Source: Streptomyces venezuelae (lineage in GTDB: Bacteria; Actinomycetota; Actinomycetes; Streptomycetales; Streptomycetaceae). Taken from it: 64,000 bases of DNA. The position numbers and the translations under genes were made by a program. The DNA lies in contig NZ_CP029192.1 of NCBI RefSeq assembly GCF_008642315.1, forward strand, positions 8,742,001 to 8,806,000, in the 5' to 3' direction. The notes beneath the pieces are model-generated. The model was given only the letters and a program-made list of their open reading frames with translations, searched no databases and was not told the origin of the DNA. Positions 6,781 to 60,195 of the stretch are shown here, one piece after another; positions within the stretch are counted from its first letter, which is position 1, and every line of letters starts with the position of its first letter.

Positions 6781-6783
6781 CTC

Positions 6784-31763: not shown

Positions 31764-31843
31764 TGCTTCATCGGAACGCTTGACTGGGAGTGGCCGCGAA
31801 GAGTCTGCGGCCACTCCTATCAACCTGGCCAAAGGGGAATCCC

Positions 31844-32029: not shown

Positions 32030-32204
32030 TTCATGGTACGGCCCCGGGCGTGCGGTTACGGGGCGAGGAACACTCAAGCAAGCCGGATAGGATTTCCCCC
32101 GGCGTACCGTTTTCCGGTGGCTGGGTGGGAGGAAAATCAGTGAGTTCGGAAAGTACGCCAGCGGCACTAAAAGCGCTGTACGGCTTACCTTTTCACTCGC
32201 GGGT

Positions 32205-32357
32205 ATGTTGAACCTGGTAGAAGCATTGTGGCACCCGCCTGGCAACGCGTAGCTTGTCATACGCGTCGCAGCATCAGCGCTGTTCACCGCCGCTCTGCTC
32301 ACTTTCATAGGGCTCTGGGTGGTCCGGAGTCGGCAACGCAGGGCAAGGGCAAGGTAG
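32205..32357 (+). pseudogene. Small single-TM protein interrupted by TAG
   Basis: From an ATG the frame reads MLNLVEALWHPPGNA, meets a TAG at 32250, and continues as a membrane helix with a basic end (ALFTAALLTFIGLWVVRSRQ, then RRARAR) before a final TAG. The second part is a convincing membrane anchor with a positive tail. It could be a third small membrane protein of the RHS locus or the tail of a lost gene. Confidence 0.35.
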
Positions 32358-32362
32358 ACGAT

Positions 32363-32390
32363 GGCCCCGTCCAGACATCTGGGCGGGGCC
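32363..32390. terminator. Hairpin terminator
   Basis: A 12-bp stem (32363-32374 with 32379-32390, one G-T wobble) and a four-base loop follow the last small gene by a few bases, ending the RHS-tip locus on this strand. Confidence 0.65.
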
Positions 32391-32785
32391 TTCGCGTATC
32401 CGGGTCAGATGAGAACGTGCGTCGACGCCGAGCAGAAGCAGACCGGCGTCGAGCTGATCGACGCGCTCACGAAGAACCGGGCCGAACCGCCGGTCGGGCC
32501 AGCCGGATCACCACTGCCTGCGCCGCGAGCGCGGCCGCCGACCTCTACGCGCACCGCAAGAGGACCGGGGCCCCGGTCAGCTGTGGATGGTGCACCGGCC
32601 TTACAGGGATGCACGGGGCGATGGCCGCAGTCCGCGGACACTTTGCTTATCAGTGGTCGACACTAGCCTCGTCGCGCGAGGCGGATCACGAGGGGAGCGG
32701 GAGGGCCGGCAGCTGTGGGGATGTCGTGGCGGGACCTCGTCTTAAGCAGAGCCTCGTCGAGGCGGGGGCGCCTCTATGACTTCGG
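32391..32785. other. Region without a convincing gene
   Basis: Two overlapping forward frames contain short protein-like runs (AEQKQTGVELIDALTKN in one, ADLYAHRKRTGAPVSCGWCT in another). This may be a small gene broken by a frameshift. It is not assignable. The left end of the IS110 element lies near 32760. Confidence 0.3.
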
Positions 32786-33988: not shown

Positions 33989-34200
33989 GTCGTGGTTCCT
34001 TCGGTGCTGTTCACCCGGCCTCGCCACGGCGCCGATCGCCACATCCACATCACGAAGAGCCTCCCGACCTGGGAAAGGCTGGTGGTCATGCCCCTAATCA
34101 GCGGTCTGTCAGCGCCTTCGGAGCTGGTGACACCACCCCCCGGGCCATGCACTCGACAAGGGGAGGTAGTCATACCAACTCCGAAGGCCGGTAACCCAGT
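33989..34200 (-). ncRNA. Candidate IS110 bridge-RNA region upstream of the transposase
   Basis: IS110-group elements encode a structured guide (bridge) RNA in the noncoding end before the transposase. The 200 bp upstream of this transposase are noncoding and contain an inverted repeat (34115-34128 with 34174-34187, 13 of 14 bases) plus short GGTGGT/CCACC repeats that could fold into stem-loops. This is a structural guess. The IS end has not been located. Confidence 0.28.
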
Positions 34201-39518: not shown

Positions 39519-40549
39519 CGAGTTGGTGCAGCGGGTGAGGTGTGTTCGGCCTTGCCGTGGCCGGTTTTCAGATGTTGGCAGTGCGGTCGGAGACGAGGCC
39601 GGCGATGGCGCGGTAGGTGTCGGGCAGGACATCTCGCCGGCGTGTCCAGCGGGTCAGTTGCTTCCAGCGTTTGTGATCGGCAAGGGCGTGTTCGACGGTG
39701 ATGCGGTCGGACGAGTGCCCGTGGCGGTCCCGCTCCCACTGCTCGACTCTGCCGGGCAATGCTCCCGGCCGCGGTTTTCTGGGCGGTGTGATGGCTTGGC
39801 CACGGTGTTCGCGGCTCAGGCCGAGGTAGCCGTCGTCCAGGAGGACTTCGACGTCGGGGAAGTGCCGGAAGCAGACGGAGATGCCTGCGTTGCGGGCGGC
39901 CGTGGCGTCGTGCATACGCCCAGGTCGCAGGGCGTCGGTCCATAACGTGCGGCCTCGCCAGTCGGCAATCACGGTGGCCTTCATCGTGTTCTGCTTCTTC
40001 TTGCCCGAGACGAAGGCACGACGTCCGCCGCGGCCGGCCGGTGGCCGGCGGACCTGGATCTCGGTGGCGTCCAGCCGCAGCTCGATGCCTTCGGCCTGGG
40101 CATAGGCACATACATCCGTCAGCGTCCGAAGTCGCAGGCCGGGAGGGTCGGGAACCGTGCACCCCCGCTCCGCCAGGAGCGTGCGCACCTCTGCGATCGC
40201 CCGGGTGACCGTGGAACGGTCGACACCGAACAGCAAGCCCAGCACCGAGTGCGGCAGGTCGTGCCGCAGATGGATCAGTGTGGCCACCAGCCTGTCGACG
40301 AACACCAGCTGATGGCGGGCGCCGGCACCCGCGGCCCGCCTCCTGGCCCCGCCCCGCGTTGCATGGCGACGACCCTCGACCCCGGTCTGCCACGGCTCCG
40401 ACAACTCTTCGATCAGACCAGCAAGATGAGACCGAGAGAGCCCCGTGAACAGCCGCTGCGCCAGCACCGCCCGATTGACCATGATCGCTACAGCGGGATC
40501 ATGCCACCCACCTGACACGACACCTCACCCGCTATCACGCACCAACTCG
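39519..40549 (-). mobile_element. IS5-family (IS1031-like) insertion sequence, complete
   Basis: The element is 1031 bp, bounded by inverted repeats beginning CGAGTTGGTGC at both ends; the right end carries five extra bases before AGCGGGTGAGGTGT. TTA flanks both sides (39516-39518 and 40550-40552), a three-base target duplication typical of the IS1031 group. It appears intact and recently inserted. Confidence 0.85.
39568..40518 (-). CDS. IS5-family transposase
   Basis: The intact 316-residue protein has an N-terminal helix-turn-helix region (DLPHSVLGLLFGVDRSTVTR AIAEVRTLLAERG) and the DDE domain: Asp in IELRLDATEIQV, the KKKQNTMKATVIADWRGRTL stretch, DDGYLGL, and Glu in TVEHALADHKRWKQLTRW. 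This pattern is that of DDE_Tnp_4 IS5-type enzymes. The start may be the ATG of MVNRAVLAQRL, 12 codons into the open frame. Confidence 0.93.
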   Translation of the reverse strand: MSGGWHDPAVAIMVNRAVLAQRLFTGLSRSHLAGLIEELSEPWQTGVEGRRHATRGGARRRAAGAGARHQLVFVDRLVATLIHLRHDLPHSVLGLLFGVDRSTVTRAIAEVRTLLAERGCTVPDPPGLRLRTLTDVCAYAQAEGIELRLDATEIQVRRPPAGRGGRRAFVSGKKKQNTMKATVIADWRGRTLWTDALRPGRMHDATAARNAGISVCFRHFPDVEVLLDDGYLGLSREHRGQAITPPRKPRPGALPGRVEQWERDRHGHSSDRITVEHALADHKRWKQLTRWTRRRDVLPDTYRAIAGLVSDRTANI

Positions 40550-41663: not shown

Positions 41664-43364
41664 ATGGCGGCATCGCCTGATCCCGCGAAGTGGTTTCTGC
41701 AGTTCGCGCCGCACGGCGCGGGGCGGCCCTGGGCGGACGGCACCGAGATGGCCAGCCGTGCGCAGCCGCCGCAGGGGCAGCCCACGTATCTCCCGTGGGA
41801 CTCAGGGTGCCGAGTGACGACGTACACCAGCGGGTTCGACGCGATGAACGCCATGCGCGACGCGTTGGTCGCCGTCATAGCCGAGGCCAAGCAGCAGCAG
41901 GGGCCGGCCAAGGGGCGTGTGTACATCAGCGACTGGCGGATGAACGGCCTGCGCGACCTGTCCACCGACAACGCCTGGGGGATCGGCCCGTGGCACCAGT
42001 TCCTCGCCGGGACGCAGGCCGCCCGCGATCAGACGGTCATCGGTCTCCTGCTGCAGCTCGTCCAGGCGGGCGTGATGGTCCGCGTCCTGCTGTGGCAGCC
42101 GTTGCACGTCAGCCAGTATTGCCCGGCAGACCTGCACGCCCATGTGCTCGACCACCATTACGCGGCCCGCATCGTGGCGGACCAGACCAAGGGACCGACT
42201 CCGCTGCCGGACGGCGAGCCGCTGGGTGTGGTCGCCCTCGACCTGCGTACCGCGGACCGGCTCACCGCGTCGCACCATCAGAAGACGATGGTCATCCGCA
42301 GCGGTGCCACCCATCTGGCCTTCGTCGGCGGGGTCGACTTCGGCTTCACCCGACGGGACGCCGTCGCGCCGGGCACCTCCGAAGCGGGCGACTGGCAGGC
42401 GGGCGCCGGCATGCCCGATCCGCAGCGCGGCTGGCCCCGGCAGGCGGGCGTCGGCTACCCGAAGCCCGACGAGGTGAAGCCGCCTGAGCGCGCCGTCCCC
42501 AGTTCGGACCTGCCCACGGCGGTGTACAGCGACTCGGATCCCACCGCGGTCGGACACCGTCAGCGCTGGCACGACCAGCACCTGAAGATCGAAGGACCCG
42601 CGGTCGCGACCCTGGAGCACCAGTTCGGGGAGCGCTGGCGTGACTCGGGCCGTGTCTTCGACCTGAGCCAGGACGGGAACTGGTCCGGCCAGCAGGTGAT
42701 CTTCAGTACGAGCCACGCCATTCAGCAGCCCGACGGCATCAGGCCACTGCCGATCCCACGGCCACCGCCGGACCTCCAGGGGGCGGCCTCCCTCGTCCAG
42801 ATGTGGCGCACGATTCCGCTGCGCCGCTATCGGGTCGGACCGCCCTTCGAGCGCGGCGAGTTCACGGTCATGGCGGGTATCGCCCACGCGGTGCAGCAGG
42901 CCACCGAACTCATCTGGATCTTCGATCAGTACCTGTGGAGCGAGGCCTTCGCCCGCCTGCTCAACCAGCGGCTGCGTGCCGTCGGCAGCCTGCGGGTGAT
43001 CATTGTCCTGCCGCCGCATGCCGACGTCCTCACCGATACCGCCCACGAGGCTCGCTTTCGCGCGCTCACCCTGCTCACCGCCTCGGGCATGCAGGACCGG
43101 GTCGCCGTGTTCAACCCGTGGAACGTCGTGTCGGCGTCCGGGAACGCACCGGCCAATCGCGGCATCTACGTGCATGCCAAGGCCCACACGTACGACGGGG
43201 CGCTCCTGGTGTGCGGCTCGGCGAACCTGAACCGGCGCTCTTTCCTGTGCGACACCGAACTGTGCTGCGCGGTGCTCGACCCCGCCGTCGTCCTCGCCCA
43301 CCAAAAGGCCCTGTGGCAAAGGCTGTTCACGAACGAGCCATGGCCCCCGTTGACGGACCTCTAG
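41664..43364 (+). CDS. Phospholipase D-like protein, first gene of the giant operon
   Basis: The 566-residue protein has two PLD half-sites. The first is HxK at His205-Lys207 in SHHQKTMVIRSG. The second is HAKAHTYDGALLVCGSANLN with His504 and Lys506. An additional HLKIEGPAV near residue 330 is of the same type. PLD-type enzymes cut phosphodiesters in lipids or nucleic acids through a phospho-His. A TAG at 43362 ends the frame, but the same frame then stays open for 99 protein-like codons (SGAGETFFQSFRAAVKTGPS to YGKGYREPS) to a TGA that overlaps the next start. The ancestral protein was thus 665 residues. Both active sites precede the TAG, so a shortened enzyme might still work. No signal peptide is seen. 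Confidence 0.85.
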   Translation: MAASPDPAKWFLQFAPHGAGRPWADGTEMASRAQPPQGQPTYLPWDSGCRVTTYTSGFDAMNAMRDALVAVIAEAKQQQGPAKGRVYISDWRMNGLRDLSTDNAWGIGPWHQFLAGTQAARDQTVIGLLLQLVQAGVMVRVLLWQPLHVSQYCPADLHAHVLDHHYAARIVADQTKGPTPLPDGEPLGVVALDLRTADRLTASHHQKTMVIRSGATHLAFVGGVDFGFTRRDAVAPGTSEAGDWQAGAGMPDPQRGWPRQAGVGYPKPDEVKPPERAVPSSDLPTAVYSDSDPTAVGHRQRWHDQHLKIEGPAVATLEHQFGERWRDSGRVFDLSQDGNWSGQQVIFSTSHAIQQPDGIRPLPIPRPPPDLQGAASLVQMWRTIPLRRYRVGPPFERGEFTVMAGIAHAVQQATELIWIFDQYLWSEAFARLLNQRLRAVGSLRVIIVLPPHADVLTDTAHEARFRALTLLTASGMQDRVAVFNPWNVVSASGNAPANRGIYVHAKAHTYDGALLVCGSANLNRRSFLCDTELCCAVLDPAVVLAHQKALWQRLFTNEPWPPLTDL

Positions 43365-43657
43365 CAGAGCGGCGCCGGCGAGACCTTCTTCCAGTCCTTC
43401 CGGGCCGCGGTCAAGACCGGACCCTCGCTCCTGGCCCCCGACCCGTGGGCCCAGACGCCCGCTCTTCTGCACAACGGCGTCACGCGCACACGGTCCGACC
43501 TGCTGTGGGACCTCTACTACGGCACGATCGCCGACCCGAGCGGCGTGGGCTCCGCGCTGGAGCAGGACGTACGCGACGACCAGGGCGGCCTGCGCCCCCC
43601 TGACCTGGCCGACCTGGTCCGCCGCCTGGAGTACGGCAAGGGTTACCGGGAGCCCTC

Positions 43658-46600
43658 ATGAGTGCGCAGAACTTCGTCGGCGACGTCCTCGGCGCGCTGG
43701 CCGAGGCCTTCGAGCCGCTGACCGACGCGCTCGCCTCACCCGAGGCCGCGGCAGCCTTCCTCGGCCGGCTCGGCTGGAGTCTGTCGCCCACCCTGCCGGC
43801 CGACGCCTTCACCACCGCGTTCGGGCCGCTTCCGGGCGCCCTGACGCGGCTTGCCGAGCGCGCGGCCGAACTGGCAGCCCTGCCCGAGGACACGGACCCC
43901 CTCGCGGTGGCCGCGGCCATCGGAAAGCTGGGCGGCGCGGTGGCCGACGTCGTCTCCGCGCTGAGCGCGCTCGGGCCACCCGCCCAGGGCCCGCCCCCGC
44001 TGCTCGACGACCCCGCCTTCTGGAACTCGCTCGCGCAGGACGTGCCGAACCTGCTCATCGCCCGCTACCTCTCGCGCAGGCAGCCGAAGCTCTGGGGGCT
44101 GCTGCGCTTCACCGGCATCGCCACCGCCGAGGTGCAGCCGGCGACGCCCACCCGGGGCAGCTACCGGCGCGACACCGTCCACTGGGCGCGCGTCGCCACG
44201 CTCGCCAGTGATCCCGGCAAGCTCTTCGCCGAGGTCTACGGATGGGGCGGTACGTTCGACGACGTCCGCTTCCTGACCGGCCTCGGCGAATTGTGCGCAT
44301 GCTTCGGGCTGCCCGCGGGCCTCGGCCCCGCGCCGTCCGCCGCCCTCGATCCGTACTGGGTCCCCGACGCGCCAGCCCGCGCCCGCATCGTACAGCTGGA
44401 CATCCCGCTCCACCGGGACATCGTCGAGGCCGGACCGTCCGTCGTCATGCTGCTGGCCGCGCTCGCGGTGGTACCGATCCCACCCCCCGCGGCCTTCGGC
44501 ACGAGTACCGCGGACCCCGTCGGCTTCTCCGTCTTCCCGATGGTCAGCGGAGACCTCACGGAGACGATCAGGATCACGGACGCCCTGTCCCTGAGTTTCA
44601 CCGGCGGCTTTGAGGCCTCCGGAGGAATCCGGGTGGAGATCCGCCCGACGGGCGCGGGCATCGCCACCTCGGGCGTCACGGGCCGGATGGCGGCCGCCGT
44701 CCGGCTGGACGCGATGCCCGCGCTCCCCTGGCTGCTGTTCGGGGCTCGCGATTCGACGCGGATGGAACTCGGGGCGGCGCATCTCGCCCTCGGCGTGCGC
44801 GGCACACCGCCCGATCTCGACATCGACATCGAGGCGGCCGCCGACCGGGTTGCCCTGGTCGTCGACTTCGGGGAGGGCGACGGGTTCCTGCAGAAGGCCC
44901 TGGGACGCAAGCCGCTCCGCTTCGACTTCGGGGCGGGTGTCGGCTGGAGCCGCTCGGCCGGATTCCGGTTCATCGGCCAGGCGACGCTGGACGTGACGCT
45001 CGCCGTGCACCTGTCGATCCTCGGCGTGGTCGACGTGGAGAACATCCAGGTCGTCCTCGGCGTACAGCCGGGGACCGGCCGGGCGGCGTTGACCGTCGCG
45101 CTCAGCGGTCGCCTCTCCCTCGGTCCGGTGCGCGCGGTCGTCGAACGGGTCGGGCTGCGCGCCGAGTTGGAGGCGCGCCGTCCCCCGGCGCCGCCGGGCA
45201 ACCTGGGCGGAGCCGACCTCGCGTTCCGGTTCAAAGCCCCGGACGGCGCCGGACTCTCCCTCGACGCGACCGCGGTCCGCGGGGGCGGATACATCCGGCT
45301 CGACGAGGCCCGGGGCCTCTACGTCGGCATCCTCCAGCTGGAGATCCAGAACCGGTTCACCGTCACCGCGATCGCCCTGATCACCACCAAACTACCGGAC
45401 GGCGCCCCGGGATTCTCGCTGCTCGTCATCATCGCCGCCGAATTCCCGGGGATCCAGCTCGGCTTCGTTCACCCTCAACGGACTGGGCGGTCTGCTCGGC
45501 GCCAACCGGACCATGTCCGTGGACGCGCTGCGCGCCGGGGTCCGCAACCACGTCCTGGACTCGATCCTCTTCCCCAAGGACCCCGTCGCCAACGCCTCCC
45601 AGGTCATTGCCGATGTGCAGGCCGTGTTCCCGGTCGCTCCCGGCCGGTTCGTCATCGGCCTCATGGCCCGCCTCGGCTGGGGAACGCCCACCCTGATCTC
45701 CCTCGACCTCGGCATCATCCTCGAACTGCCCTCCCCGGTACGGATCGCGCTCCTGGGACGTCTGGCGCTGGCGCTGCCCGAGGGCGAGCCCGTCGTGTCG
45801 CTGAAGATGGACGTCGTCGGCATCCTCGACTTCGACCGTCGTGAGGCCTCCGTCGACGCCACGATCTACGACTCCCGGATCGCGGCCTTCACCATAAGCG
45901 GTGACATGGCCGTCCGGCTCAACTTCGGTGCCGCGCCCGCCTTCGCGCTGTCCGCGGGCGGCTTCAACCCGCGCTTCACCCCGCCGCCGGGCTTCCCCGA
46001 ACTGCGCCGTATGACCATCGCCCTCGCGGACTCGGACAACCCGCGGCTCCAGCTGGAGTCGTACTTCGCGACGACCCCGGCCACGGTGCAGTTCGGGGCC
46101 CGGCTGGACGTCTTCGTCGCCGCCGACGCCGGCATCTTCGGCTACTTCTCGGTGACCGGCTACCTGTCGTTCGACGCGTTGCTCGTCCTCGCCCCTCCGT
46201 CGTTCATCGTAGACATGGCCGGAGGGCTGTCGCTGCGGCGCAACGGCAAGGTGCTGTTCGGCATCGACATCCGGCTCAGCCTGGCCGGGCCGGCCCCGTG
46301 GCACGCCTGGGGCGAGGCCACCTTCGAGTTCATCGGCAAACGCACCATCCCCTTCGACGTCACCGTCGGTGAGGAAGTGGCCGCCGTCCTGCGCGCCATG
46401 GTGGATCCGCTGGGCGACCTGCTGACCGCCTTGGCCGATCCGCAGAACTGGACCGGCGCGCTCCCCGCAGAAGCGGGGCTGGTCACCCTGCGCTCCCTGG
46501 ATCCCGGCGCGGGAACGGTCGTTCATCCCTTCGGCTCGCTTGCGGTGCGGCAGCGCGAGGTCCCGCTGGCGCTGACCATCGACCGCTACCAGAACGTGGA

Positions 46601-47186
46601 GCTGGCCGCGCCGGCCCTGTTCGACATCGCTTCCGTCAGCTTCGGGCCGACGGCCGTGCACGCGGGCGCGGACGTACGCGAACACTTCAGCGCGGCCGAC
46701 TATCTGCTGCTCACCGACGACGAGAAGCTCAGCCGTCCCGCCTTCGAGCCGCTTCCCGCGGGGCGCTCCGCGATCGGATTCCCGGCCGCGCCGGACACCG
46801 GTGAACCCAGGATGCCGGTGGCGCACGGCGCTCCGGTCGCTCGCCCCGGCGACACCTACGACACCGTCGTCATCAACGAGGCGTCCGCGCAGCCCAAGCA
46901 GCACCTCCCGGACGCCTACGCGGCGCACCCGGACCTCCTCACGGTCTTCGCCGGATACGCGGCAGGCGCCCGATCCCCGCTGGCCTCGCCGGGAGCCAAC
47001 CGGTTCGCCGGGGACGGGCTGGGCATCGCCGTACGCGACCCCGGCTACCGGCTGGCGTTGCGCAGCACGCTGGCCGCCGTGTCCGCCGTGACGTACGTGA
47101 GCCGGGCGGAGGCCGAGGAGGCCCTGCGGGGCTCGGCCCGGCCGGAGACCCTTCAGGTGGTCGGAGCCCAGGAGGTGGTGTCATGA
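43658..47186 (+). pseudogene. DUF6603-like giant protein, frameshifted
   Basis: The ATG overlaps the end of the PLD frame (ATGA). The first frame encodes about 600 residues and the second about 575. They join near 45466, where two bases missing from GFGFTLNGLGGLLGANRT would restore one protein of about 1175 residues. The second half has the DUF6603 hallmarks: LGGLLGANRTMSVDALRAGV, HVLDSILFPKDPVANA, FPVAPGRFVIGLMARLGWGT PTLISLDLGIILELPSPVRI, and many amphipathic beta-strands (AFTISGDMAVRLNFG, VQFGARLDVFVAA). It looks like a large beta-sheet or barrel-type structure. There is no signal peptide. DUF6603 has no known function that I can name. Confidence 0.7.
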
Positions 47187-49965
47187 CGGACGCGCGCTTT
47201 CTGCCCTGGGCCCGCCAAGGGCTGGCCACGGCGCTCACCACCACGGACCCGGTCGGCGACGCACCGCTGCCCCTGCGCGTACCGCTGAAGGTGACCACCG
47301 CCGTCGGCGGATCGGCTTCCGGCACTGCGTCCGTGCAGCTGCACCTGCACGGACCCGCCGACGTCGTCGGCATCGACCCGCGCCAGGTGCGGCGGACGGA
47401 CCCGGCGCCCGGTACGGCCGTCGAGCCCGGATATCTGCCCCTGATCGAGTTCCAACGCCCGGACTTTCCCTGGCTGTTCACCCCGGCATCGGCCAACTCC
47501 GAGGACCGGCTGCGGCCCTGGCTCTGTCTCGCGGTCCTCGAAGCATCCGAGGTGACCGTGCAGCGGCCGGACGACCGGCCGGCCATCGCCCGTCTCGAAC
47601 ACGCCGGGCGTACGTTGCCGAACCTCGCGCAGTCATGGGCCTGGGCGGTGGTCCAGGTCCCCGGATCCGGCGCCCCCGCCGACGCGTTGCGCTCCGCCCG
47701 CCCCGGCCAGGCGCTCAGCCGGCTGTTCTGCCCGCGCCTCCTGCGTCCCCGCACGGCGTACGTGGCCCTCGTCGTGCCCACCTTCGAGCAGGGCCGGCTC
47801 GCGGGGCTGGGGCGGCTGACGGGCGAGGTGGCGTCGACGGCGCAGACGGCTCCGGCGTGGCGTACCGACACCGGTCCGCTGGAGCTGCCCGTCTTCCACT
47901 CCTGGGAGTTCAGCACCGGCGAGGAAGGGGACTTCGAGGCGCTGGTCACCAAATTGCGGAGAGTCGCACTGGATCCGGGCCGGGTCGGCCGCCGCCCCCT
48001 GTCGGTGCGGAGCCTGCCCGCCGGACTGCCCGACCTCGGTGAGGTCCCGCTGGCCGGGGCGCTGGAAGCGGTGAGCCCGGACCAGTTGACCGGTTCCGCC
48101 GCGAGCGACGACTTGGGCACCCCGCTCGCCCCGTCCTTCACGGAGGCGCTGCGCGCGCTTTTGAACACCTTGCTGCCGGCACCGGCGGGCACTCCCGCGC
48201 CGGCCGGCCTGGTCCTGCCGCCGCCGCTGTACGGGCACTGGCAGGCGGGGCAGCCGACCGTGCCGCCGGTGGGCGGGGCGGCCTGGCTGCGCCGGCTCAA
48301 CCTCGACCCGTGCCACCGGGTGGCCGCGGGCCTCGGTGCCCGCATCGTGGAGCTCCAGCAGGAGGAGTTGATGGCCTCGGCGTGGGCGCAGGCCGGGGAG
48401 GTCATCCGCGCCAATCAGCTGCTGCGCTCCGCACAGCTCGCGCGGGCCGCCGACCGCCTGTTGCACCGCGGGCTGGCCGCCCTGGACGCCGAGGCGCTGC
48501 TCCAGATCACCTCGCCGGTCGCTCCTCGGGTGCGGCACGGCACCCGCACCGTCGCCGGCACGGTGCAGGGCGGCGGCAGCCGCGTGCCGCCTGCCATGAC
48601 GGGAGCCGCGTTCCGCTGTGCGCTGCGCCCGCGCGGGCCGCTCGGGCGGCGTACCGGCGTCGGCGCCGCCGATCTGCTGCGCGCCGTGAACGACGGCACG
48701 CTCACGGTGTCCGGCCCCGCCGTGGCCCGCCGGGCACGGTGACGTTCGACTCCGCCGTCGACGGGCCGGGCCTGTGCACCCGTACCCCGGACGCCCTCCT
48801 GGACGCCGAACCGCCGCCCAAGGATTCCCCGCGGTACCGGGCCTGGCTGGACTTCCGCAGCGTCGCGGTGCGGCAGCAGTCCACGATGCCCGCGTGCCAT
48901 CCGCCACCGCCGCGCCCCCCGACCCGGCTGCCCACCGGTGACATCGCCGTCTCCGTGCTGAACGCCCTGGACCCGGAGCTGACGGTGCCCAAGCGCGTGG
49001 CCGGCCGGGTGTCGGCTCCGTCGGACTGGCACCCCGCCGACCCCCTCGACCCCCTCCTCGTGGCGCCGTCCTTCCCGACGCCCATGTACCGCGCGCTCGC
49101 CGACCTCTCACAGGACCTGCTACTGCCGGGCGTCGGCGACATCCCGGCGAACTGCGTGGCCGGGCTCGCGATCAACCCCCGCTTCGTCGAGGCGTTCCTG
49201 GTCGGGCTCAACCACCACGTCGGCCGGCTGCTGTTGGCCCGCCACTTCCCGACGGACCAACGAGGCACCTGCTTCCGCCAGTTCTGGGATCCGGCCGGCC
49301 GGGTCCCGGCCCCGGCGACCGCCGCGGAACGCCACGACATCCCCGCGCTCCACGAATGGACCGCCGCAAGCGATCTGGGAGAGCACCTGAGGGGCGGCCG
49401 GCACTTCGTGCTGCTGCTCCGCGGCGATCTCCTGCGCCGCTATCCCGACGCGGTGATCTACCTCGCCCAGGGCGAGTGGTACGAGCCGGGGACGGGCCTG
49501 CCGTCCCGGCGCCGCCCCAAGTCCGCACCGCCCGGACTGAGCCCCGGAGCCCCCGAACACCCGGAGAAATACCCGCTGTTCAGGGGAAGCCTCGCACCCG
49601 ACGTGACCTTCATCGCCTTCCCCGTCACACCGGAGGCCGCCATTGGAGACCCCGATCCGGCCGGGTCCCGACCCGGGTTCTTCGTCGTCATCCAACAGCA
49701 GCTCACCGAGCTGCGCTTCGGGATCGACACCGCCGAACCCACCGCCTTGACCGGCAGTTGGCGCGACCTGTGGTGGGGGAACGTGCCCCTCACGCCGAGC
49801 GGCCACATCGACCTGGACCAGCCGCTCCAAGGTTTCGGCGACCGCACCGACAACCCGCTGGGGCTGCGGTGGGGAGCCACCAGCGCCCATCAGGCCGCGA
49901 TCACGACGCAGGCCCCCTTCCGTGCCGCGATCCACGCCAGCGACCTGTTGGAGCCCCCGCCATGA
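47183..49965 (+). pseudogene. Giant operon protein 3, unknown, frameshifted
   Basis: The ATG overlaps the previous stop. The first frame gives 519 residues from MTDARFLPWARQGLATALTT and includes YLPLIEFQRPDFPWLFTPAS and DRLRPWLCLAVLEASEV. One base is off near 48720 and the second frame, GTVTFDSAVDGPGLCTRTPD to LLEPPP, completes about 927 residues, ending in an ATGA overlap. The second part contains FVEAFLVGLNHHVGRLLLAR, FRQFWDP and FFVVIQQQLTELRFGID. These blocks recur, as far as I remember, in uncharacterised proteins of actinobacteria, myxobacteria and cyanobacteria. No enzyme motif, membrane helix or signal is visible. Confidence 0.68.
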
Positions 49966-52900
49966 CCACGTTCACCCAACTGGACGCCGGTATCCCGCTG
50001 TTGCTGCTGCCGGTCCGCCTGGAGACGCGGTTCACCCCGCGCGACGCCGTCGGGGCGCGCGTCCTGAAGATCCGGATCTATCCGGACGATGTCCACCAGG
50101 ACAGTCATGAGCCGGGCCTCACGGCGGCGGAGTCGACCGGCGGGAAGGAGTTCTGGGCGGCGCTGTGGCGGGCGGGCCGGGGCGTCGAAGGGGAGCAGCA
50201 ACGCCTCACCGCCTGGCAGCTGTTGGTGGCACGGCACGGCGCTCACCGGGCGCGCTGGATCGCCGAACGGCTCACCCCGGTCAATCCGGGGCAGCGTCCG
50301 GACGAGCGGATCCCGGCCGACGCTCCGCTGTCGCCGCCGCCGCAGTGGCCGGACGTCCCGTCGGCGGACGCCGCGTGGACGCGCGCGTCCCGTATCGCCG
50401 TACTGCCCGACCGATGGCTGGCCACCGGCCATTTCGGGGGCCGCAAGGTCTTCGAGCAGCGCGGGGCGCCCATCACACGGCCGCTGGCCACCGGGCCGGA
50501 CCCGGCCGACGACCTGAACGAGGTGGGCCAAGTCGGCCCGGGCATGCGCTGGATGGTCGACTTCGCCGCCGCCGAGCTGGCCGGCATGGGGATCAGCGTC
50601 CGGTTGCCGCCGGGCAGCCCGGACCGCTTCGACCGGATCACGGTCCTCGGCGTCGCCGAATCCCTCGACGCGGCGGAGGCGACGGCCGCGCTCTCCGGCC
50701 TGCTGGACGCGCACGCCGCCACCTGGGGGCTGGACCTGGTGCCTCAGGGCACCCCGACCAACAACGACGGACCCGGTCGCCCGGGTGGACGCCGCCCGCG
50801 GACCCTGGACGGGGCCGGCGTCCTGGCCGCGCTGGACGCGGCGCCCGCTGCGCCGGGCGACGGCAGTGACGCCGCGGCCCTGGCCCACGCCCTCGGGGTG
50901 ACCGAGCGGACGTCTCCGCTGTGGCGGCTGCCGCACGCGGCCGGCACCGAGGGGGGCGAGGCATCGGCGATGGCGGCCGCGCTGTGGCCGGCCACTTGGG
51001 GCTACTACCTGCGGGAACTGTTCTCGCCGGGCTTCGACGGCATGCCCCTGGCAGACTGGCGCCGCTTCACGATCGACACGGTGCGCGCCCGCGGTCCGCT
51101 GCCCGCGGTGCGGGTCGGTGATCAGCCGTACGGCGTCCTGCCCGTCACCTCGCTGACGCAGTGGCGGCCCCACCCGTCCCGTCCGGACCTGTTGTTCTGA
51201 CCGGATCGCCGACACGGCGGCGCAGTCCCGGCTCCATGTCCGATGGGAGCTGGACGCCCAGGGGGAGTCTGCCGCCGCTTCCGGGCATGACAGGGAGGCT
51301 CCTCCTCTCGTCGGTGATCCGGCACGGGCCGCGGGCACGTTTCTCACATTTCCCGGAGACACCCGGCCCGGGGTGGTCCTGCTCGACCCCGGCACACCCC
51401 AGCAGGCCCCGTCGCACTGGCTCGGGCCGAGGGCCGAGCGGAGCGGCACCCTTGAGGGCGACTGGCTCGGCCCCTTCCCGCCCCCCTTCCTGGCCGCCGA
51501 ACACCGCGGAGTCGCCCTGACGACGCTGGCGGCGGACAAGGGGCCGCGGCTGCTGGCCGCTCAACTCATCGCCCGGCGCGGCCAGTTCCGGCTGCACCTC
51601 GCCTTCGGCACCCCGCTGCAGGGCAACCGGGTCCGCTGGGACCAGGCCGTGGACGTAGGGGAGTTGTCCGCCGAGGCAGGGCACCGGCTCGTCGGCCTCG
51701 CGGCCGGTCACGCCACGGGCGGGCGGCCAACCGAGATCGTGGCGCTGCTCGCGGTGCCCGACGCCGCCGGCGACGAGACGCTCTCGTACCGCCTGGGGCG
51801 GCTCTCCGAGCGCGGCCGCCTCACCGTCACCTGGGCCGACCCGCTGACACCGCCACCCACCGGACCGGGCCCCGTCCGCACCGCGGGGGTCGCCCTGCAC
51901 GACCTCGACGGTGACGGCCGGGACGACCTCCTGCTCGTCGCCTCGCACTCCCCGCTGACCGACGCCGCCTACTGGATCGGTTCCGGTCTGGGCGAGGACG
52001 GCGTGGCGGCGGGCTGGCAGGGCCCGTTCCCCGCCGCGCCCTCGTGGGAGCGTCCGGCCGGGCTGTGCCTCGGACTCCTCGACGCGGGCCGCCCGCCCGC
52101 TCCCGCACCGCTCGGCTCGCCGTCGGCGTTCGTCGACCTGCTGAGCGACGCCCGCCGCCTGTGGCTCGCCCGGGCCGCGTCCCCGCGGGTCCCCTTCGTC
52201 GGCCGCGGCGATCCCGGCCGCACCCTCCTGGACATCCTCGCCCACGACGCCCATGCGACCAGCCTCCACGTCAGGCGTCTGATGGGACCCGACTACCTGC
52301 AGTCCCTGTCCACCCTCATGGGTTCCGGGCCGCTGCCGGACCTCCCCGCACGGATCGCCGCGCGCTGCGACACCCAGCTGATGCACCTGGGACTCGCCGT
52401 CCGCACCCGCCTGGACAGCTCCTGCTACGCCGACACCGCCGTCGAGTGGACCGCGCCATGGATCCAGAGCGGACCGCTGTCCGAGACCGAACCACTGACC
52501 GAGAACTACCTCCGCTGGGCCGCCACCGTCCACCCGCAGGCGCTGCACGGCCACCGGGGCATCGCTGACAGCAGCCCGCTCCTGCTGCGCCTCGTGCGTC
52601 ATGCGACGCTGCGGGGGTACGCCGACGCCGCCCTCCGCCTCGTACCGCCACCGATGCCCGCGGACCGGCCGCCGTGGCACGAACCGGAACTCGTCGACCT
52701 GTTCTCCCTCGCCCACCCCGACGCCGACCCGCCGCCCGCCCCGCCCCGCACCCTGACCGCCTGGCGCTACATCGGCGAGAACCAGCAAGGCCGCGACCTG
52801 GGCGGGGAGATACAGGTACGCAGCAACGCGGGCGACGGCGCCGTCGCCGACGTGACCGAACTGCGGGACGCGCTACGGCTGTTGGCCGACCGCCCCACCG

Positions 52901-55341
52901 CCGCCCTGCACCGGCTGCTGGCCGAGACTCTCGACCTGTCCGGCCACCGCCTCGACGCGTGGATCACAGCGGTCGCGACCTCCCGCCTGCGCGCCCTGCG
53001 CGCGCAGCGGCCGACCGGCATTCAACTGGGCGGCTACGGCTGGACAGAGGACCTGGTCGCCGCCGACGCCGACGCCGCCGAGGAGAGCGCCGGCTTTGTG
53101 CACGCCCCTTCCCTCGCCCACGCCACCACCGCGGCACTGCTGCGCGGCGGCCACCTCAGCCACCGGGGCACCCCGGCCGCCGAGACCTTCGCCGTCGACC
53201 TGTCGTCCGCCCGGGTCCGCGCCGCCCTGGAACTGCTCGACGGGATCCGCGCGGGCCAGTCGCTCGGCACGCTCCTCGGCCAGGTCTTCGAGCGCGCCCT
53301 GGTGGAACACCCCGACCTGCCGCTCGCCCGCCACCTCGGCGCGTTCCGGCAGCTGTGCCCGTCGGTGGCCGGCAAGCGGGTGCCCCTCCCCGAAGGGGTG
53401 CCCGCCGACGCCGTGGCCGCGCGGAGCGTCTGCGACGGGCTGGCCCTGCTGCGGTTGCACCAGAAGTCCGCGATTCCCTGGGGTGAGACTCCGCCGGGGC
53501 TGCCGGAGGCGGATTCGACCGACGCGCAGGCGCTGAAGACGATCCTCGACGCGCTCGGCGACCGGGTCGACGCCGTCGCCGATCTCGGCGTCGCGGAGGC
53601 CGTCCACCAGACGGCGTCGGGCCGTCCGGTCCGGGCCGGAGCGGTCCTGGACGCGCTGAACCGAGGTGAACTCCCGCCCCCCGAGATCGAGGTGAGCGCC
53701 AGTGCCCGCAGTGGCATCGGTGTCACCCACCGGGTCCTCGTCCTGCTCGCCCCGCCCGACCCGGACGATCCGGCCGTACGGGCCTGGAGCGCGTCCCGAA
53801 CCGGCGGGCCGCCGTTGCGCGCGCGGGCCGAGCCCCGGCTCGACGCGTGGGCGGCGCGGCTGCTCGGCGACCCGGCGCGCGTCACCTGGCAGGCCCAATT
53901 CCCCGGCCCCGGCGGCGACTTGCCCGACTCGGTCGTCACCTTCACCCTCGGGGACCTCGGCCTGTGCCCGCTCGACGTCCTGTCCTGCCCGGGCGCCGAA
54001 CCGGGCGGAGACCTGGAACGACGCATGCTGCTGCACGCCGTGCGCCACGCCCCGGCCGGCTGGAGCGGTCCGCCGCCGCGCCTGCGCCTCGGGCCCGCCG
54101 CGGGCCCGGGCTCCCGCAGTGTCCGCGCGCTGCTCGAAGTCGCCCGGGCCGTACGTGACCTGGTCGGCGGGGGCCGGCCGCTGCGGCCGGCCGACCTCGT
54201 GTCCGGCAGCGCCCCGGACGCCGACGCCGGGCGCCTCGACCTGGCCCGTCGTCTCGCCGACGCCGTGACCGTCGTGAAGGCGGCGGTGGCCGCGCTGCGC
54301 GCACTCTTCGCGTTCACCGACCCGGCCGCCGCGCGTGCGGCGATCGCCGGGGCCCTCGGTGTGCCGGTGGGTGAACTCGGCACGATGGACAACCTGTTGG
54401 ACCTGCCGGCCGGGCTGGACATCGCCCGCGCGGGCGACGCCGCAGCGGTCCCCGCCCGGTCCGCGCCGGAGGCCATCCGCGACGCGCTGCTCGCCCTCGC
54501 CGACTGCGCCGTGCAGGGGGCGGTGCCCCGCTCGGCGGCCGACGGCGACGCCTGGGACGTCCTGAGCGTGCAGACCGCAGCGGTGGGCCGGGAGTGCGCT
54601 GGCCGGCTCGACGCGGCCCGCCGGGCGGCCGACCCCGCCACCGGACTCACCGAACTCCTTGGCGCGGACACGCGGATCCTTCCCACGTTCGCCCCGCCGA
54701 GCCAGGACTACGTCCTGGCCCTGGCCGAGCGGCGCCGCGCGGGCGACGCCACCGCGGGCGTCACGGCGCCCTGGCTGGCCGGGTTCGCCGAGGTGCGCGA
54801 GGGAGTCGGCCGCCTGGACCGCGCCCTGCTGTGCGCCGAGGCCCATACGGAGTCGCTGCTGGGCGGCGTCGACATCGCCCAACTGCCGCTGGCGGGCGAC
54901 ACCCCGGAACGCTGGGCCGGGCTCGAACCCGCCGCCGGAAAACGGCTGCCCGGCGGGCGCCTGTCGCTGGCCCTGCACACGCCGCTCGGGCCGCCGCCGG
55001 CCGCCGCCGACGCGACCGTCTCGGGGCTCGCCGTCGACGACTGGGTCGAAGTCGTCCCCAACAACGAGGAGACAACCGCCGTGGCCTTCCACTACGACAA
55101 CCCGGGCAACACCGCTCCGCAGGCACTGCTGCTCGCAGTACCCCCGGTCGTCGGACAGCCGTGGGACACCGACACGCTCCAGGACGTCCTGGCGGAGACG
55201 ATCGACCTCGCGCGCGTGCGCGCCGTCGACCCCGACGCATTGCCCGACCTCGGCCAGTACCTGCCGGCCCTGATGCTCGCCTGCAACGTGGGCGGCGATC
55301 CGCAGGGCGACACCATCTCCACCCAGGCCCCGATCGCGTAG
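49962..55341 (+). pseudogene. Giant operon protein 4, unknown, with VCBS-like repeat, frameshifted
   Basis: The ATG overlaps the previous stop. Reading MTTFTQLDAGIPLLLLPVRL ETRF, the frame runs 413 residues to a TGA at 51198. A second frame is open from before that point to 55341, so one protein of about 1790 residues was split. Some sequence may also be missing at the join, because VGDQPYGVLPVTSLTQWRP changes abruptly to DRIADTAAQSRLHVRWELD. The C-terminal part has a calcium-loop HDLDGDGRDDLLLVASHS (FG-GAP/VCBS type) at about 51900 and a helical middle. It ends YLPALMLACNVGGDPQGDTI STQAPIA. It has no signal peptide and no known family. Confidence 0.68.
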
Positions 55342-55347
55342 GCGCCC

Positions 55348-57090
55348 ATGTCTTCCCTCACGACGTGGCAGCGCCTGGAACCCCGTACCCGCAGCAGCAC
55401 GCTGGACTCGATCCGGGCCCGGGTCCACGACCCGGCGTGGCTGCTCGCCCGGCAGGCGCAGCTCGGCGAGTTCCTCGGGACGGACGCCGGGTCCGCGATC
55501 AGCGTCGAAGCGGCCGGGCGGACCAGCCGCCTGACCCGATACCGGCCCGGCACCCCGGCAGACGGCGCGCCCCCGCAGCCGTATCCGGCCGGGACGCCCC
55601 TGGAGGCCGTCGTCGAGGCGGAGACCGGACAGGGCCCCGCGACCTCGGGCACGGTGTTCGCCGCGCAGGCCGGGCAGTGCTTCCTGCGGTCTCTGGGACC
55701 GGAGTTGGGCCCGCGCTACCGCGCCGCGTACATCCTGCGCCACCCGCTGACGGCCCCGCCCGACCCCACCGCCCTGGACGACGCCTCCCTCCGGCTCCTT
55801 GACGTCCTGGTCGGCCATGTCCCCGACGGGCACGCCCTTTACGCCGAACTCTCCGCCGCCCTGCGGCCACCGGGCGGCGGCGCCCCCGTACTCCCCGAAG
55901 AGCCGCCCATCGCGCCGGCGGATGCCGCCGCGGTGCTCGCGACCGCGCTCTCCTGGCTCGGCTGGTACGAGCGGAGGCGTCCGGCATCCCGGCCGCAGGC
56001 GTGGCAGCCGGAGCGGCTTGCTCACCGCTTCGCCGTCGCCGCACCGGCACCCGGACCGGCCGACGACGGCGAAGCTGTCCTGTCGGCGCCGGCGTTCCCG
56101 GGCGGCCGCCTCGACTGGCACGCCTTTGACGTCGAGGCCGGGGCTTCCCTGGGGGCGGCCGGGGCCACGAAGGAGTGGCGGAACGTCGCGATTCCCACCC
56201 CGGTCCGCTTTCCCGGCATGCCGAACGCCCGCTGGTGGGAGTTCGAGGACGCGACGAACCTCGGTGCGGTGGATGCCGCGCCCGACGATCTGGGACGGCT
56301 GCTGCTCCTGGAGTTCGCCCTCGTCTACGGCAACGACTTCCTGTACTTTCCGCTCGATCTTGACGTCGGCTCGCTGTGCTGGATCGACGGGCTGACGGTG
56401 CGTACCTCGTTCGGCGAGAGGGTCGGGATCCGGCCCGTCGAGAAGGCCGATGGCGGAGCGGGCCTGTGGAGCATGTTCCGCCTCACCCGCCTGACGCCGT
56501 CGGGGCGCCCCGAGCGGGGCGACTTCCTGTTCCTGCCCCCCGTGCTCGGCCCGTCCCTGTCCGGTCCCGCACTTGAGGAAGTGGCCTTCGTACGGGACGA
56601 GACGGCCAACATCGTCTGGGCGGTGGAGGAGCGGATCCAGACAGCCGCGGGGACCACGGCGGTACCGCACGAACTCGCCGAGGACCGCCGCCGGCGCGGC
56701 CCGGCCGAGGAGCCACCACCCGCGCCGGGGCCCGCGCTGACGTACCGCATGGCGACCGCGGTCCCGGACCCCTGGTATCCGCTGCTGCCCTCGCTGATCT
56801 CCCGCACCGTCGCGGGCGTCAGCTGGAACAACGTGGTGCTGGAACTCTCCGGCACCCGCGCCCCGCGCGCCCAGGTGCTGCGCAATCCCGGCGGTACGCC
56901 GCTGCGCGTCGCGGAGCAGGAGATCTCCGCCACCGGCGCCGTCGTCAACCGGTCCTGGCAGCGCGCCCGTTGGACGGACGGCAGCGTCCATCTGTGGGTG
57001 GGGAAGCGGCGGAGTGCCGGGCAAGGGGCTCGTACGAGCGGGCTCCGGTACGACGTGGTCGAGGAGCTCGACCACGAGGAGACGACGTGA
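55348..57090 (+). CDS. Giant operon protein 5, unknown (580 aa)
   Basis: This is the only gene of the operon after the PLD gene with an unbroken frame. It starts six bases after the previous stop. The protein begins MSSLTTWQRLEPRTRSSTLD SIRARVHDPAWLLARQAQLG and has a conserved-looking core MPNARWWEFEDATNLGAVDA followed by ALVYGNDFLYFPLDLDVGSL and RTSFGERVGIRP. It is soluble, has no nuclease, protease or ATPase motif and is not recognised. Tight spacing with the giants implies that it works in the same complex or pathway. Confidence 0.78.
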   Translation: MSSLTTWQRLEPRTRSSTLDSIRARVHDPAWLLARQAQLGEFLGTDAGSAISVEAAGRTSRLTRYRPGTPADGAPPQPYPAGTPLEAVVEAETGQGPATSGTVFAAQAGQCFLRSLGPELGPRYRAAYILRHPLTAPPDPTALDDASLRLLDVLVGHVPDGHALYAELSAALRPPGGGAPVLPEEPPIAPADAAAVLATALSWLGWYERRRPASRPQAWQPERLAHRFAVAAPAPGPADDGEAVLSAPAFPGGRLDWHAFDVEAGASLGAAGATKEWRNVAIPTPVRFPGMPNARWWEFEDATNLGAVDAAPDDLGRLLLLEFALVYGNDFLYFPLDLDVGSLCWIDGLTVRTSFGERVGIRPVEKADGGAGLWSMFRLTRLTPSGRPERGDFLFLPPVLGPSLSGPALEEVAFVRDETANIVWAVEERIQTAAGTTAVPHELAEDRRRRGPAEEPPPAPGPALTYRMATAVPDPWYPLLPSLISRTVAGVSWNNVVLELSGTRAPRAQVLRNPGGTPLRVAEQEISATGAVVNRSWQRARWTDGSVHLWVGKRRSAGQGARTSGLRYDVVEELDHEETT

Positions 57091-57150
57091 CGCCACGTGC
57101 GGGGGCTGCGCTGCCCCAAGGTTCAGCTCAGGTCCACGGAAGGATTCTCA

Positions 57151-57990
57151 ATGGCTGCCACTGAGGTGCACAAGGTTCCCTGGACACGCAAGCATGACGA
57201 ACCAGTTGTCGACCTGATCCCGTCCGCTCCGACCATCGCCTACCCGACATCGTTGGAAGACCTGATCGATCTCCTCAAGAACCGTGACCCGGCGGAGCGA
57301 GTCCGGGCGGCCGGCAGTCACTGGGCGCTGTCCCGGGCTGCCGTGAGCGACGACGTCTTCGTCGAAACCCATGATCCGAACAACGTCCACCCGGCCATGG
57401 GACGCACGCTGTACGACGTCGTGCCGGGGTGCCTCACCGAAGAGTTCATCGAGCGACTCGCCACACAGCACCCCGCACCGTACGACGCCGAGCACTCCGA
57501 AGAGGACGTGGGGCTGTACCCCTTCCACATCGAGACCGGGAAACGCGTCTACCAGGCCTACGCCGAAATGGACTGGGGTGACGACCAGAAACCCGGACAG
57601 CCTGGCGGTGCTCCTCCAGCACGCCTACAACAACACCTCGTATTTCGGTCCTTGGGCGTTTCGCACCATGGGCGGCGCCGGAGGGCAGACCGTCTTCACG
57701 GCGCTGACCACCGGTACGCACGGAGGCGACTTCCGAGCCCTGCCCATCGCGGATTCGGTGCTGGCGATGCACCTGGTCACCGACGGCGGCAAGCACTACT
57801 GGATTGAACCCGAGACCAGCCCCACTACCGTACGGATGACCGACGACACGAAACTGCGGGCGCTCTACGGGACGCCCCGCTACGGCGGGCCGGGCAACTT
57901 CGAGATACGACGCAGCGACGACCTGTTCAACGCCGTGCTGATGTCCGCCGGGCGCTTCGGGATCGTCTACTCCGTCGGCGTCAAACACGG
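57151..57990 (+). pseudogene. FAD-linked oxidase N-terminal part, frameshifted and truncated
   Basis: The ATG has GGAAGGA seven bases upstream. The protein starts MAATEVHKVPWTRKHDEPVV and shows the PCMH-type FAD-binding fold: YPTSLEDLIDLLKN, VRAAGSHWALSRA and, after the break, FRTMGGAGGQTVFTALTTGT with the flavin-contacting GTHGGDF. One extra A near 57590 (CAGAAACCC for CAGAACCC) shifts the frame. At about 57990 the sequence changes to the C-terminus of an IS701 transposase, so the substrate-binding half is lost. It follows the giant operon by 60 bp on the same strand and may have been its last gene. Confidence 0.72.
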
Positions 57991-58215
57991 CCTGGGCCTG
58001 GACCACTTCGAGGGCCGCACCTGGCGCGGCTGGCACCACCACGTCACCCTTGTCACCACCGCCCAGGCCTTCCTCACCCTCCGGCGGCTCCACCCCAAAG
58101 CACCGACTCCAGCCTGAGCCTCTACCAAGTCCTCGACACTCTGCAGGACATGCTGCGGTGCTGGACCGGCACCTGCACCACCTGCGGCCGACCACTCACC
58201 AGAGCCAGAACCTAA
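57991..58215 (+). pseudogene. IS701-family transposase C-terminal remnant
   Basis: LGLDHFEGRTWRGWHHHVTL VTTAQAFLTLRRLHPKA is the typical end of IS701 transposases. Behind a TGA, the same-strand words LSLYQVLDTLQDMLRCWTGT CTTCGRPL are the usual trailing sequence of these elements. It is fused in frame to the FAD oxidase fragment. Confidence 0.72.
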
Positions 58216-58228: not shown

Positions 58229-59443
58229 GTGCTGGATTCCTCTTTCACTGGGTATATGTCTTGGTGGCGGGGTAGTTGATGGTGCTCGGGGCGGGTGCTG
58301 GGTCATGGTTTTACGGGCACGGCCAGGGCGTGATGAGGACGAGCGGGCCGTCGTTCGCCGCTTGTCGCGGGCTCGGAAGGCTCCGCGCGATGTCGTGATG
58401 CGGGCCCGGATCGTCGAGTGGAGCTGGTCGGGGCTGCGGGTGCCGGCGATCGCTGCGGAACTGGACTGCAGTCAGAGGACGGTCCGCTGCTGGCTGCATC
58501 GCTTCAATCGCTCGGGCCTGCCGGGGCTGGATGATCTGGGTGGGCAGGGCCGCAAACGACGGATCACCGAGGAGGAACGTTCTCGCATTATCGCCCTGGT
58601 CAAGGGCGTGCCGCCGGGGCGGCTGCGGTGGGAGCCGGTCGGGGAACTGTGGGCTTTCGACGAAGAGGGCCCATCGGAGTGGACCCTGGATTCCCTGGCC
58701 GCGGGGGCGCGTGCCGAAGGGATCGAGGTGGGCCGCTCGCAGGTCAGACGCATCCTGCTCGCCGAGGGTGTGCGCTGGCGCCGCACCCGGTCCTGGACAC
58801 GTTCGAAGGACCCGGACTTCGTCCCAAAAGGACAAGGGTCATCGGCCTCTACACCCACCCGCCCGACGGTGCGACGGTGATCTGCGCCGACGAACTGGGG
58901 CCGGTGATCCCGCGTACCTTCCCGCCCGCGCCCGGCTGGTCACCGGACGGGCACCGGATCAAAGCGGAACTCGACTACAGCCGCGGACCGGAGAAGACCT
59001 GGATCTACGGCGGTCTGCGGCCGGCCGATGGCCAGGCAGTCACCATGACCGCCTCCTCCCGCAACAGCGTGTTCTATCAGCAGTTCCTGCAACTGCTCGA
59101 GGACGCCAATCCGGACGGGGATATCTGGATCGTCACCGACAACCTGTCCAGTCACAACAGCGTGTCCACCCGGAACTGGCTCGAAGACCACCCCCGCATC
59201 CACCACGCCTTCATCCCGGTAGGAGCGTGCTGGCTCAACCTGCAAGAAGGCTGGTGGCGCATCTTCCGCAAAGCCGCGCTCGCCGGCCAGTCATTCGCCA
59301 ACCGCCACGACATCGACCACGCCACCAACCTGGCAACCGGCCAGCTCAACAACCATGCTGCTCCCTGGATCTGGGGCAGACCCACACCACCAACCCGCCT
59401 GCCCCGGCGCCGATATGTGTACACCGTTTGAGGAATCCAGCAC
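58229..59443 (+). mobile_element. IS630-family insertion sequence, complete
   Basis: The outermost 14 bp of each end (GTGCTGGATTCCTC) are perfect inverted repeats, and with the flanking CTA the match extends to 17 bp. A TA lies on each side (58227-58228 and 59444-59445), the target duplicated by IS630/Tc1-mariner-type elements. The element is 1215 bp and looks intact. Confidence 0.9.
58305..59431 (+). CDS. IS630-family transposase expressed by -1 frameshift
   Basis: Frame one starts MVLRARPGRDEDERAVVRRL and holds the helix-turn-helix region (RVPAIAAELDCSQRTVRCWL HRFNRSG). At 58823-58829 the sequence is C CCA AAA, a canonical -1 slip site. The continuing frame (RTRVIGLYTHPPDGATVICA DELGPVIPRTF) carries the DDE domain, with Asp in ICADELG, WIVTDNLSSHNS and the last acidic region near PVGACWLNLQEGWW. 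The fused protein of about 375 residues is complete, so the element may be active. Confidence 0.9.
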
Positions 59444-59447
59444 TAGC

Positions 59448-59609
59448 TCACAGGAAGGCCTTGTCGGCCTTTTCCTGCAGCTCGTCCATCGCCGCCTTGG
59501 TGCACTGCTCCTTCGCCTCGGGGCTGACCGTGAGGACCGACGTGTTCTCCAGCCCCGCCGGGAGGCATACGTGCACCGGGATGCCGCTCAGCGGAAAGCG
59601 CCTACCCAT
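59448..59609 (-). CDS. Small hypothetical protein or gene end (53 aa)
   Basis: From an ATG the reverse strand encodes MGRRFPLSGIPVHVCLPAGL ENTSVLTVSPEAKEQCTKAA, then MDELQEKADKAFL and TGA right beside the IS630 end. The last 30 residues look like a genuine helical C-terminus. The first 15 could be chance reading through a recombination junction. It is too short to recognise. Confidence 0.4.
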   Translation of the reverse strand: MGRRFPLSGIPVHVCLPAGLENTSVLTVSPEAKEQCTKAAMDELQEKADKAFL

Positions 59610-60195
59610 CGATCGGGACAGCCTGCGCGCGCTGGCCCGCGAGGTGGCAGCCGATGTAACCGAGGACCAACTCGCCGTTCTGCCAACACCGTTGGCCCCC
59701 CTTCCACCGACAATCCCCCGCCCCCGTGGGGAGCGGGGCGAAAGCGGTGAGGGCTACGTGGTGACGCCTGCGCATCCCGAGATGAAACTGGTCATCGGGC
59801 TGGCCGGAGAGAAAATCGTCGGCGCGTGGCTGCACCGCCATCTTGGTGTGCCGGAGCAGGAGTCGTGGCGTTCCAGCCTGCGTTCGCACGTCTACCCGGA
59901 CAGAGTCGGGGACGACCGGCTCGGCTACGACTTCCGGGTCGGCACCCCGGAGCGGACTCTGTACTTCGAGGCGAAGGCATCCGCGGGAGCCGACGGGGAG
60001 ATTCAGTTGGACGAGTCCGAGGTCGAGCGCGCACGCACCCTCAAACCCGATGAGACGTACATCGTCGTGTACGTCTCGCATGTGTTGGACGGTGCCCGTC
60101 GCCGCGTCACGCCCTTGCCCAACGGGGCGCCTGGGCTTGCCGGGTATCGCCTGGTGGGGAATGCGTTGCGGCTGCGGTTCACATTGCCCAGGTAG
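59581..60195 (+). pseudogene. DUF3883-domain protein, C-terminal fragment
   Basis: The open frame carries the DUF3883 (Mrr-like nuclease) fold at its end: PEMKLVIGLAGEKIVGAWLH, DDRLGYDFRV, LYFEAKASAGADGEIQLDES EVERARTL and YIVVYVSHVL. These domains usually terminate proteins of over 1000 residues with an HSP90-like or helicase N-terminal part, linked to DNA-targeting defence. Here only about 200 residues remain. The 5' end meets unrelated sequence next to the IS630 element. The in-frame ATG gives a short protein that might be made, but the enzyme is incomplete. Confidence 0.65.

Follow-up and report, generated by a model that had tools for sequence, protein, structure and literature searches.

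Four genes for large proteins form an inherited unit with an exchangeable lead gene in Streptomyces, other bacteria, and haloarchaea

Four genes encoding large and largely unannotated proteins (g2 to g5), the first of which is a DUF6603 protein, form one inherited and horizontally moved unit that recurs from Actinomycetota to haloarchaea. This unit, here termed the chassis, was recognized in a 64,000-nucleotide stretch of DNA from Streptomyces venezuelae (hereafter the window), which covers 8.742-8.806 Mb of a genome that consists of a single 8.94-Mb contig, and follows a lead gene (g1) for a phosphodiesterase of the phospholipase D (PLD) superfamily. A first-pass annotation of the window had proposed that all five genes encode one multi-protein system. 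The idea of one system is strongly supported by fixed gene order, by co-occurrence, by fusions of g4 with g5, and by a conserved block with sharp ends, but the conserved unit comprises g2-g5, and several enzymes can take the lead position, PLD being one of them. The chassis joins protein families with lengths from about 500 to over 1500 residues in one cross-domain unit with an enzyme slot, which makes a testable system of thousands of residues hitherto annotated as hypothetical.

Conserved gene order and co-occurrence

Profiles of g2-g5, built on seeds from Streptomyces longwoodensis, were searched against 44 fetched loci and the window. The final 45 loci, the window among them, include L078-L080, which were added afterwards; L003 and L006 were dropped because their genomes are already represented by L052 and L055, and L009 because it closely resembles L007. 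The genes g2-g3-g4-g5 are complete, in order, and on one strand in 32 of the 45 loci, or in 33 when L056, where g4 and g5 are fused, is included. Order and strand are kept in Actinomycetota, Gemmatimonadota, Alpha- and Betaproteobacteria, and haloarchaea. Among the incomplete loci, L062, L069, L071, L074, and L075 are cut by a contig edge, L055 is a rearranged copy that is whole when seen as L006, and the stretch of L080 runs up to the end of its record, from which no second g5 was reported. In L033, g3 and g4 each consist of two overlapping genes. A later set of 15 loci from the genus of the window, which are not independent of the first set, comprises nine loci strictly in order, five in which a single frame of more than 2000 residues unites g4 and g5, and the rearranged L105.

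Because the loci were located through a match to one of the genes, and retrieval with g5 favors loci that have it, less biased counts were made among genomes and plasmids. In 396 Actinomycetota genomes, DUF6603 is present in 12, g3 in 10 (all inside the 12), and g5 in 10 (8 inside). The hypergeometric probabilities of the overlap with the DUF6603 genomes are 3e-18 for g3 and 2e-12 for g5, with the 396 genomes treated, on matching handles, as the same draw across searches whose E-value limits differ (0.001 vs. 1e-6). Of the 72,556 plasmid records searched, the identical 13 match g2, g3, and g4, and 15, including those 13, match g5; the 13 belong to bacteria (Streptomyces, Nocardia, Gemmatirosa, Rhizobium, Paraburkholderia) and haloarchaea (Natrinema, Salinigranum, Halobellus, Halalkalicoccus). 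Independent occurrence of the families, which would have spoken against one system, is mostly not observed; the exceptions are L037, L057, L068, L070, and L077.

The distribution of the chassis is patchy: within the genus of the window, 16 of 246 genomes have g5, and the closest same-genus copy among the matches listed is 44% identical. In the g5 tree, the Streptomyces sequences are scattered, Rhizobium groups with Catellatospora (99/93), and Gemmatirosa joins a group containing S. anthocyanicus (100/98); four haloarchaeal sequences, two of which have an odd composition, form one clade (100/99).

Two pairs of sister loci point to block-wise inheritance of the core and exchange of the lead gene. 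L064 and L065 share 84% identity across 10.4 kb (7948-18304 in L064). The g2 frame of L064 starts at 7966 and its g5 ends at 18304, so that the conserved block extends from the start of g2 to the end of g5; the rest of the two 19.9-kb stretches, with about 8 kb upstream and only 1.3-1.6 kb downstream, gave no further match. A PLD gene lies directly upstream of the core in L064, but none was found in L065. Likewise, L051 and L053 lie within one clade of the g5 tree (100/100), but the former is led by tandem trypsin-like genes and the latter by an M64-type gene.

Core protein families

The resemblance of g2 to DUF6603, already perceived in the first-pass annotation, is firmly established: the domain (PF20248) is spread over two frames (45020-46718), the pieces of which (45020-45469 and 45462-46718) score 89.4 and 281.3 bits against a cut-off of 27, and g2 of relatives also scores well over the cut-off. 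DUF6603 is so far only a family of unknown function; no paper naming it was found in a literature search for 2020-2026. Its partners g3, g4, and g5 have no family-wide match in the libraries tried. Additional modules occur in individual members, such as LysM in 1 of 26 g4 proteins and lamin-tail domains on the haloarchaeal g5 of L030 and L031. The VCBS-type loop described for g4 of the window (51853-51933) is seen as a match to FG-GAP_3, but its score of 18.0 bits is under the Pfam cut-off of 26.9. The predicted model of DUF6603 is a very large, two-faced beta-sheet with a long run of amphipathic strands; its predicted TM-score (pTM) is only 0.52, and porins, ushers, and apolipoprotein B (ApoB) are matched alike, all with root-mean-square deviations (rmsd) of 10-15.

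DUF6603 occurs also in a second arrangement (L068, L070, L077), where it is paired with a protein family remotely related to g3 (hhalign probability 97.8%); the three genomes yielded no g5 match. DUF6603 and a g3-like protein may represent the older pair. The same loci hold further undescribed proteins, one of which has the motif VYLHW in both L070 and L077. Between g2 and g3, L051 (about 5950-8190) and L053 (about 5100-8170) contain internal repeats that have diverged to about 64-75% identity.

Exchangeable lead genes

The gene upstream of the core was compared among the 33 loci that have g2 and at least about 0.7 kb of upstream sequence, with L068, L070, and L077 left out. The adjacent gene encodes a hydrolase in 14 of them. 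PLD leads occur in the window and L064; the latter also matches the NCBIfam cardiolipin synthase, under the cut-off. PhoD-like leads are present in L030 (above the cut-off), L073 (below the cut-off), and L034, the last two assigned by homology to L030. M64-type leads were identified by profile in L053, L071, and L072 and by homology in L054; trypsin-like leads by profile in L039 and by homology in L051, L067, and L078, the last of which also weakly matches the solved NARROW LEAF 1. An M14 carboxypeptidase in L066 was recognized in a PDB search. The assignments thus rest on a profile score over the cut-off for the window, L030, L039, L053, L071, and L072, and on similarity to another lead for L034, L051, L054, L064, L067, L073, and L078. 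In L030, L031, L032, L069, L071, L072, and the window, the lead abuts or overlaps the first possible start of g2 by 1-4 bases; in L038, a gene for an S8 peptidase overlaps the end of g5 instead.

The remaining loci have no qualifying same-strand gene (L033, L036, L038, L061, L065, L079), an unassigned upstream open reading frame (ORF; L031, L032, L035, L052, L058, L060, L063, L069, L075, L076, L080), or a WD40 gene (L056, L059). The haloarchaeal lead proteins of L031 and L032 are weakly related to each other and have a glycine-rich hydrophobic stretch that could be membrane-spanning. In the later set of 15 loci, six leads fall into the same classes (two PhoD-like, one M64, three trypsin-like) by similarity to first-set leads; the trypsin-like match of L102 is weak (47.5 bits, no GDSG motif). 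Five others are WD40 leads, all in the g4-g5 fusion group, and in four loci the lead is unassigned or g2 is absent.

Hydrolases also occur in the neighborhood. The peptidoglycan-binding-like PLD gene of L036 and its neighbor, annotated as DUF2235 (30751-34068), have close relatives in L106 (949-4147) and L109 (14527-17767), divergent to the core, with scores of 1310 and 1274 bits for PLD and 764 and 740 bits for DUF2235, respectively. The pair is therefore found near two different chassis groups; L056 has DUF2235 alone, without a PLD partner. A block of 100 residues of the L036 PLD, also present in L106 and L109, is 59% identical to part of the peptidase frame of L038, and a peptidoglycan-binding domain is above the cut-off in the lead of L034 and below it in that of L064. 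DUF2235/Tle1 proteins with a Gly-X-Ser-X-Gly motif are described as type VI lipase effectors (PMC7245790), and PMC4223295 places the phospholipase D of S. chromofuscus in the PhoD family. In sum, three unrelated phospholipase-type and four peptidase families occur in the lead position or its neighborhood.

The PLD lead of the window (g1) was correctly classified in the first-pass annotation. It matches PLDc_2 (PF13091) with 40.3 bits (cut-off 27) in a domain (42885-43310; residues 408-549) that contains the second HKD motif, and the C-terminal HxKx4D...GSxN motif at residue 504 assigns it to the PLD superfamily. Its first HxKx4D motif is incomplete, with HxK present and R aligned to the aspartate of a solved phospholipase D; the PLD proteins of L036 and L064 likewise lack this D. 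Among PADLOC models, g1 matches DrmC at an E-value of 0.0076 only.

Possible function of the chassis

Phospholipases and peptidases of unrelated folds have been swapped into one position, which suggests that the hydrolase is a harmful activity. Chassis and hydrolase together may constitute a conflict or delivery system of a new architecture that carries an effector, a reading to which we give just about an even chance. The four giant proteins would assemble into one cytosolic complex, whose huge amphipathic DUF6603 beta-sheet, as predicted, might engage lipid or a membrane, and variable modules (FG-GAP, LysM, lamin-tail, peptidoglycan-binding) could direct it. The hydrolase would serve as destructive cargo or activity, carried or activated by the complex and swapped under a conflict-type arms race. 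If true, this would add a new type of machine to microbial conflict, one that is not phage-tail-based and is common to haloarchaea and monoderm bacteria. A bolder version, in which the four giant proteins form an effector-carrying nanomachine of undescribed kind, common to bacteria and archaea, with DUF6603, as a single-chain amphipathic beta-sheet, opening or spanning the target membrane and a cargo slot that takes unrelated phospholipases and proteases, is conceivable but rather unlikely.

Several observations weigh against the effector reading. No recognized hydrolase lies directly upstream in 19 of the 33 first-set loci, and clustering of 383 neighboring ORFs revealed no family in more than three loci and no common immunity, lysis, or secretion gene. 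Export is unsupported: a simple hydropathy measure indicates no obvious signal peptide on the eight leads examined, the core proteins, or any protein of the window operon, in agreement with the first-pass annotation, although many PhoD, PLD, and S8 enzymes are secreted. Moreover, L037 and L057 contain g5 without the other core genes, and in L068, L070, and L077 DUF6603 is accompanied by no more than a g3-like protein. The Foldseek TM-scores of the DUF6603 model are all low, no fold match was found for the predicted model of g5, and PADLOC gave no match for the single DUF6603, g3, g4, and g5 protein tested. Because of the loci without a hydrolase, the lack of a common immunity or secretion gene, and the unsupported export, the effector reading is held at roughly one in two, and its rivals are kept.

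As in polymorphic toxin and type VI effector repertoires (Tle lipases, proteases), a conserved machinery is combined with interchangeable hydrolases of unrelated families, among them DUF2235/Tle1-type and PLD proteins. Unlike type VI systems, however, the scanned core and lead proteins have no VgrG, PAAR, Hcp, or sheath match (only some neighbors were scanned for PAAR, VgrG, and Hcp), no immunity gene was seen at chassis loci, and the chassis is present in haloarchaea. Extracellular contractile injection systems are large gene sets without obvious signal peptides and occur sporadically in Streptomyces and archaea. The chassis resembles them in all three respects, but the Pfam scans made assigned none of its core proteins to a tail, baseplate, or AAA+ family, and no contractile-tail genes are named in the annotated plasmid stretches examined, where the gene table is incomplete. 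Scans of viral contigs yielded no relatives of g5 or g2, and PHROGs, searched with g5 only, gave single-member matches with E-values of 0.015 or worse, one of them named as an attachment protein. Tc toxin complexes share the very large, operon-encoded proteins and the FG-GAP/VCBS-type repeats of some chassis members, but Pfam scans of the window pieces and relatives detected no Tc-type domains (Tc/SpvB/TcdB). The predicted long series of amphipathic strands in DUF6603 is reminiscent of outer-membrane beta-barrels and the beta-belt of ApoB; in contrast to these, its hosts are actinomycete and archaeal, an obvious signal peptide is lacking, rmsd values are high and TM-scores low, and no sequence relation to DUF6603 was found.

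The strongest rival, though unlikely, is an intracellular defence, in which the chassis, in a form of abortive infection, would sense the infection and set free a hydrolase bound to it that attacks membranes or proteins. It would fit the missing signal peptides, the plasmid locations, the sporadic presence (12 of 396 genomes), and the swapped hydrolases, but no NTPase, cyclase, or recognized sensor domain is listed for the core proteins scanned with Pfam, those tested have no PADLOC match, and the peptidoglycan-binding modules on some leads and the lamin-tail domains on haloarchaeal g5 suggest action at an envelope. The same modules, together with FG-GAP, LysM, and the beta-rich DUF6603, would also suit a structural complex of envelope or spore, or a secreted digestive complex, whose hydrolase matures the complex or feeds the cell. 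Such a role is improbable in view of the sporadic occurrence within the genus (16 of 246), hosts that comprise archaea and bacteria with unlike envelopes, the absence of obvious signal peptides, and lead genes whose catalytic type differs between sister chassis (trypsin-like in L051, M64-type in L053). A lipoprotein-like carrier, in which DUF6603 covers lipid like ApoB and phospholipases trim it, is very unlikely, given that porins and ushers match the low-pTM model equally and peptidase leads are unsuited to this task.

The window copy and its surroundings

The operon of the window is located on the plus strand, with all genes head to tail. The coordinates of the ATGA junctions (43658, 47183, 49962) and of the six-base gap between the end of g4 (55341) and the start of g5 (55348) were verified as first annotated. 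Only g5 (55348-57090; 580 residues) is intact. The lead gene g1 (41664-43661) has an in-frame stop (43362-43364), past which the same frame has no further stop before the ATGA at 43658 and looks coding, with a third-position GC of 0.91. One frameshift each interrupts g2 (43658-47186) near 45465, g3 (47183-49965) near 48735, and g4 (49962-55341), the largest core family, near 51200. In the same genome, 66 of 71 AMP-binding matches cover most of the profile, in frames of up to 5863 residues; the genome as a whole is not frameshift-prone. Because these 66 matches are near full length and homopolymers of six or more are absent from the interruptions, local decay is likelier than faulty assembly, and the copy in the window is probably dead.

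The operon is flanked by ORFs whose identities were judged by eye from their translations: an insertion-sequence-like ORF upstream (39568-40518, minus strand) and, immediately 3' of g5, ORFs (57097-58117 and 58305-58880) resembling a FAD-linked oxidase, over two frames, and a transposase. In the ORF at 58531-60195, the C-terminal residues 351-551 match TmtA models of PADLOC (E 4.6e-51), and a match to NOV_C is just under the cut-off. RHS-repeat proteins are encoded at 8081-10963, together with a DUF6531 domain, and at 30154-31569.

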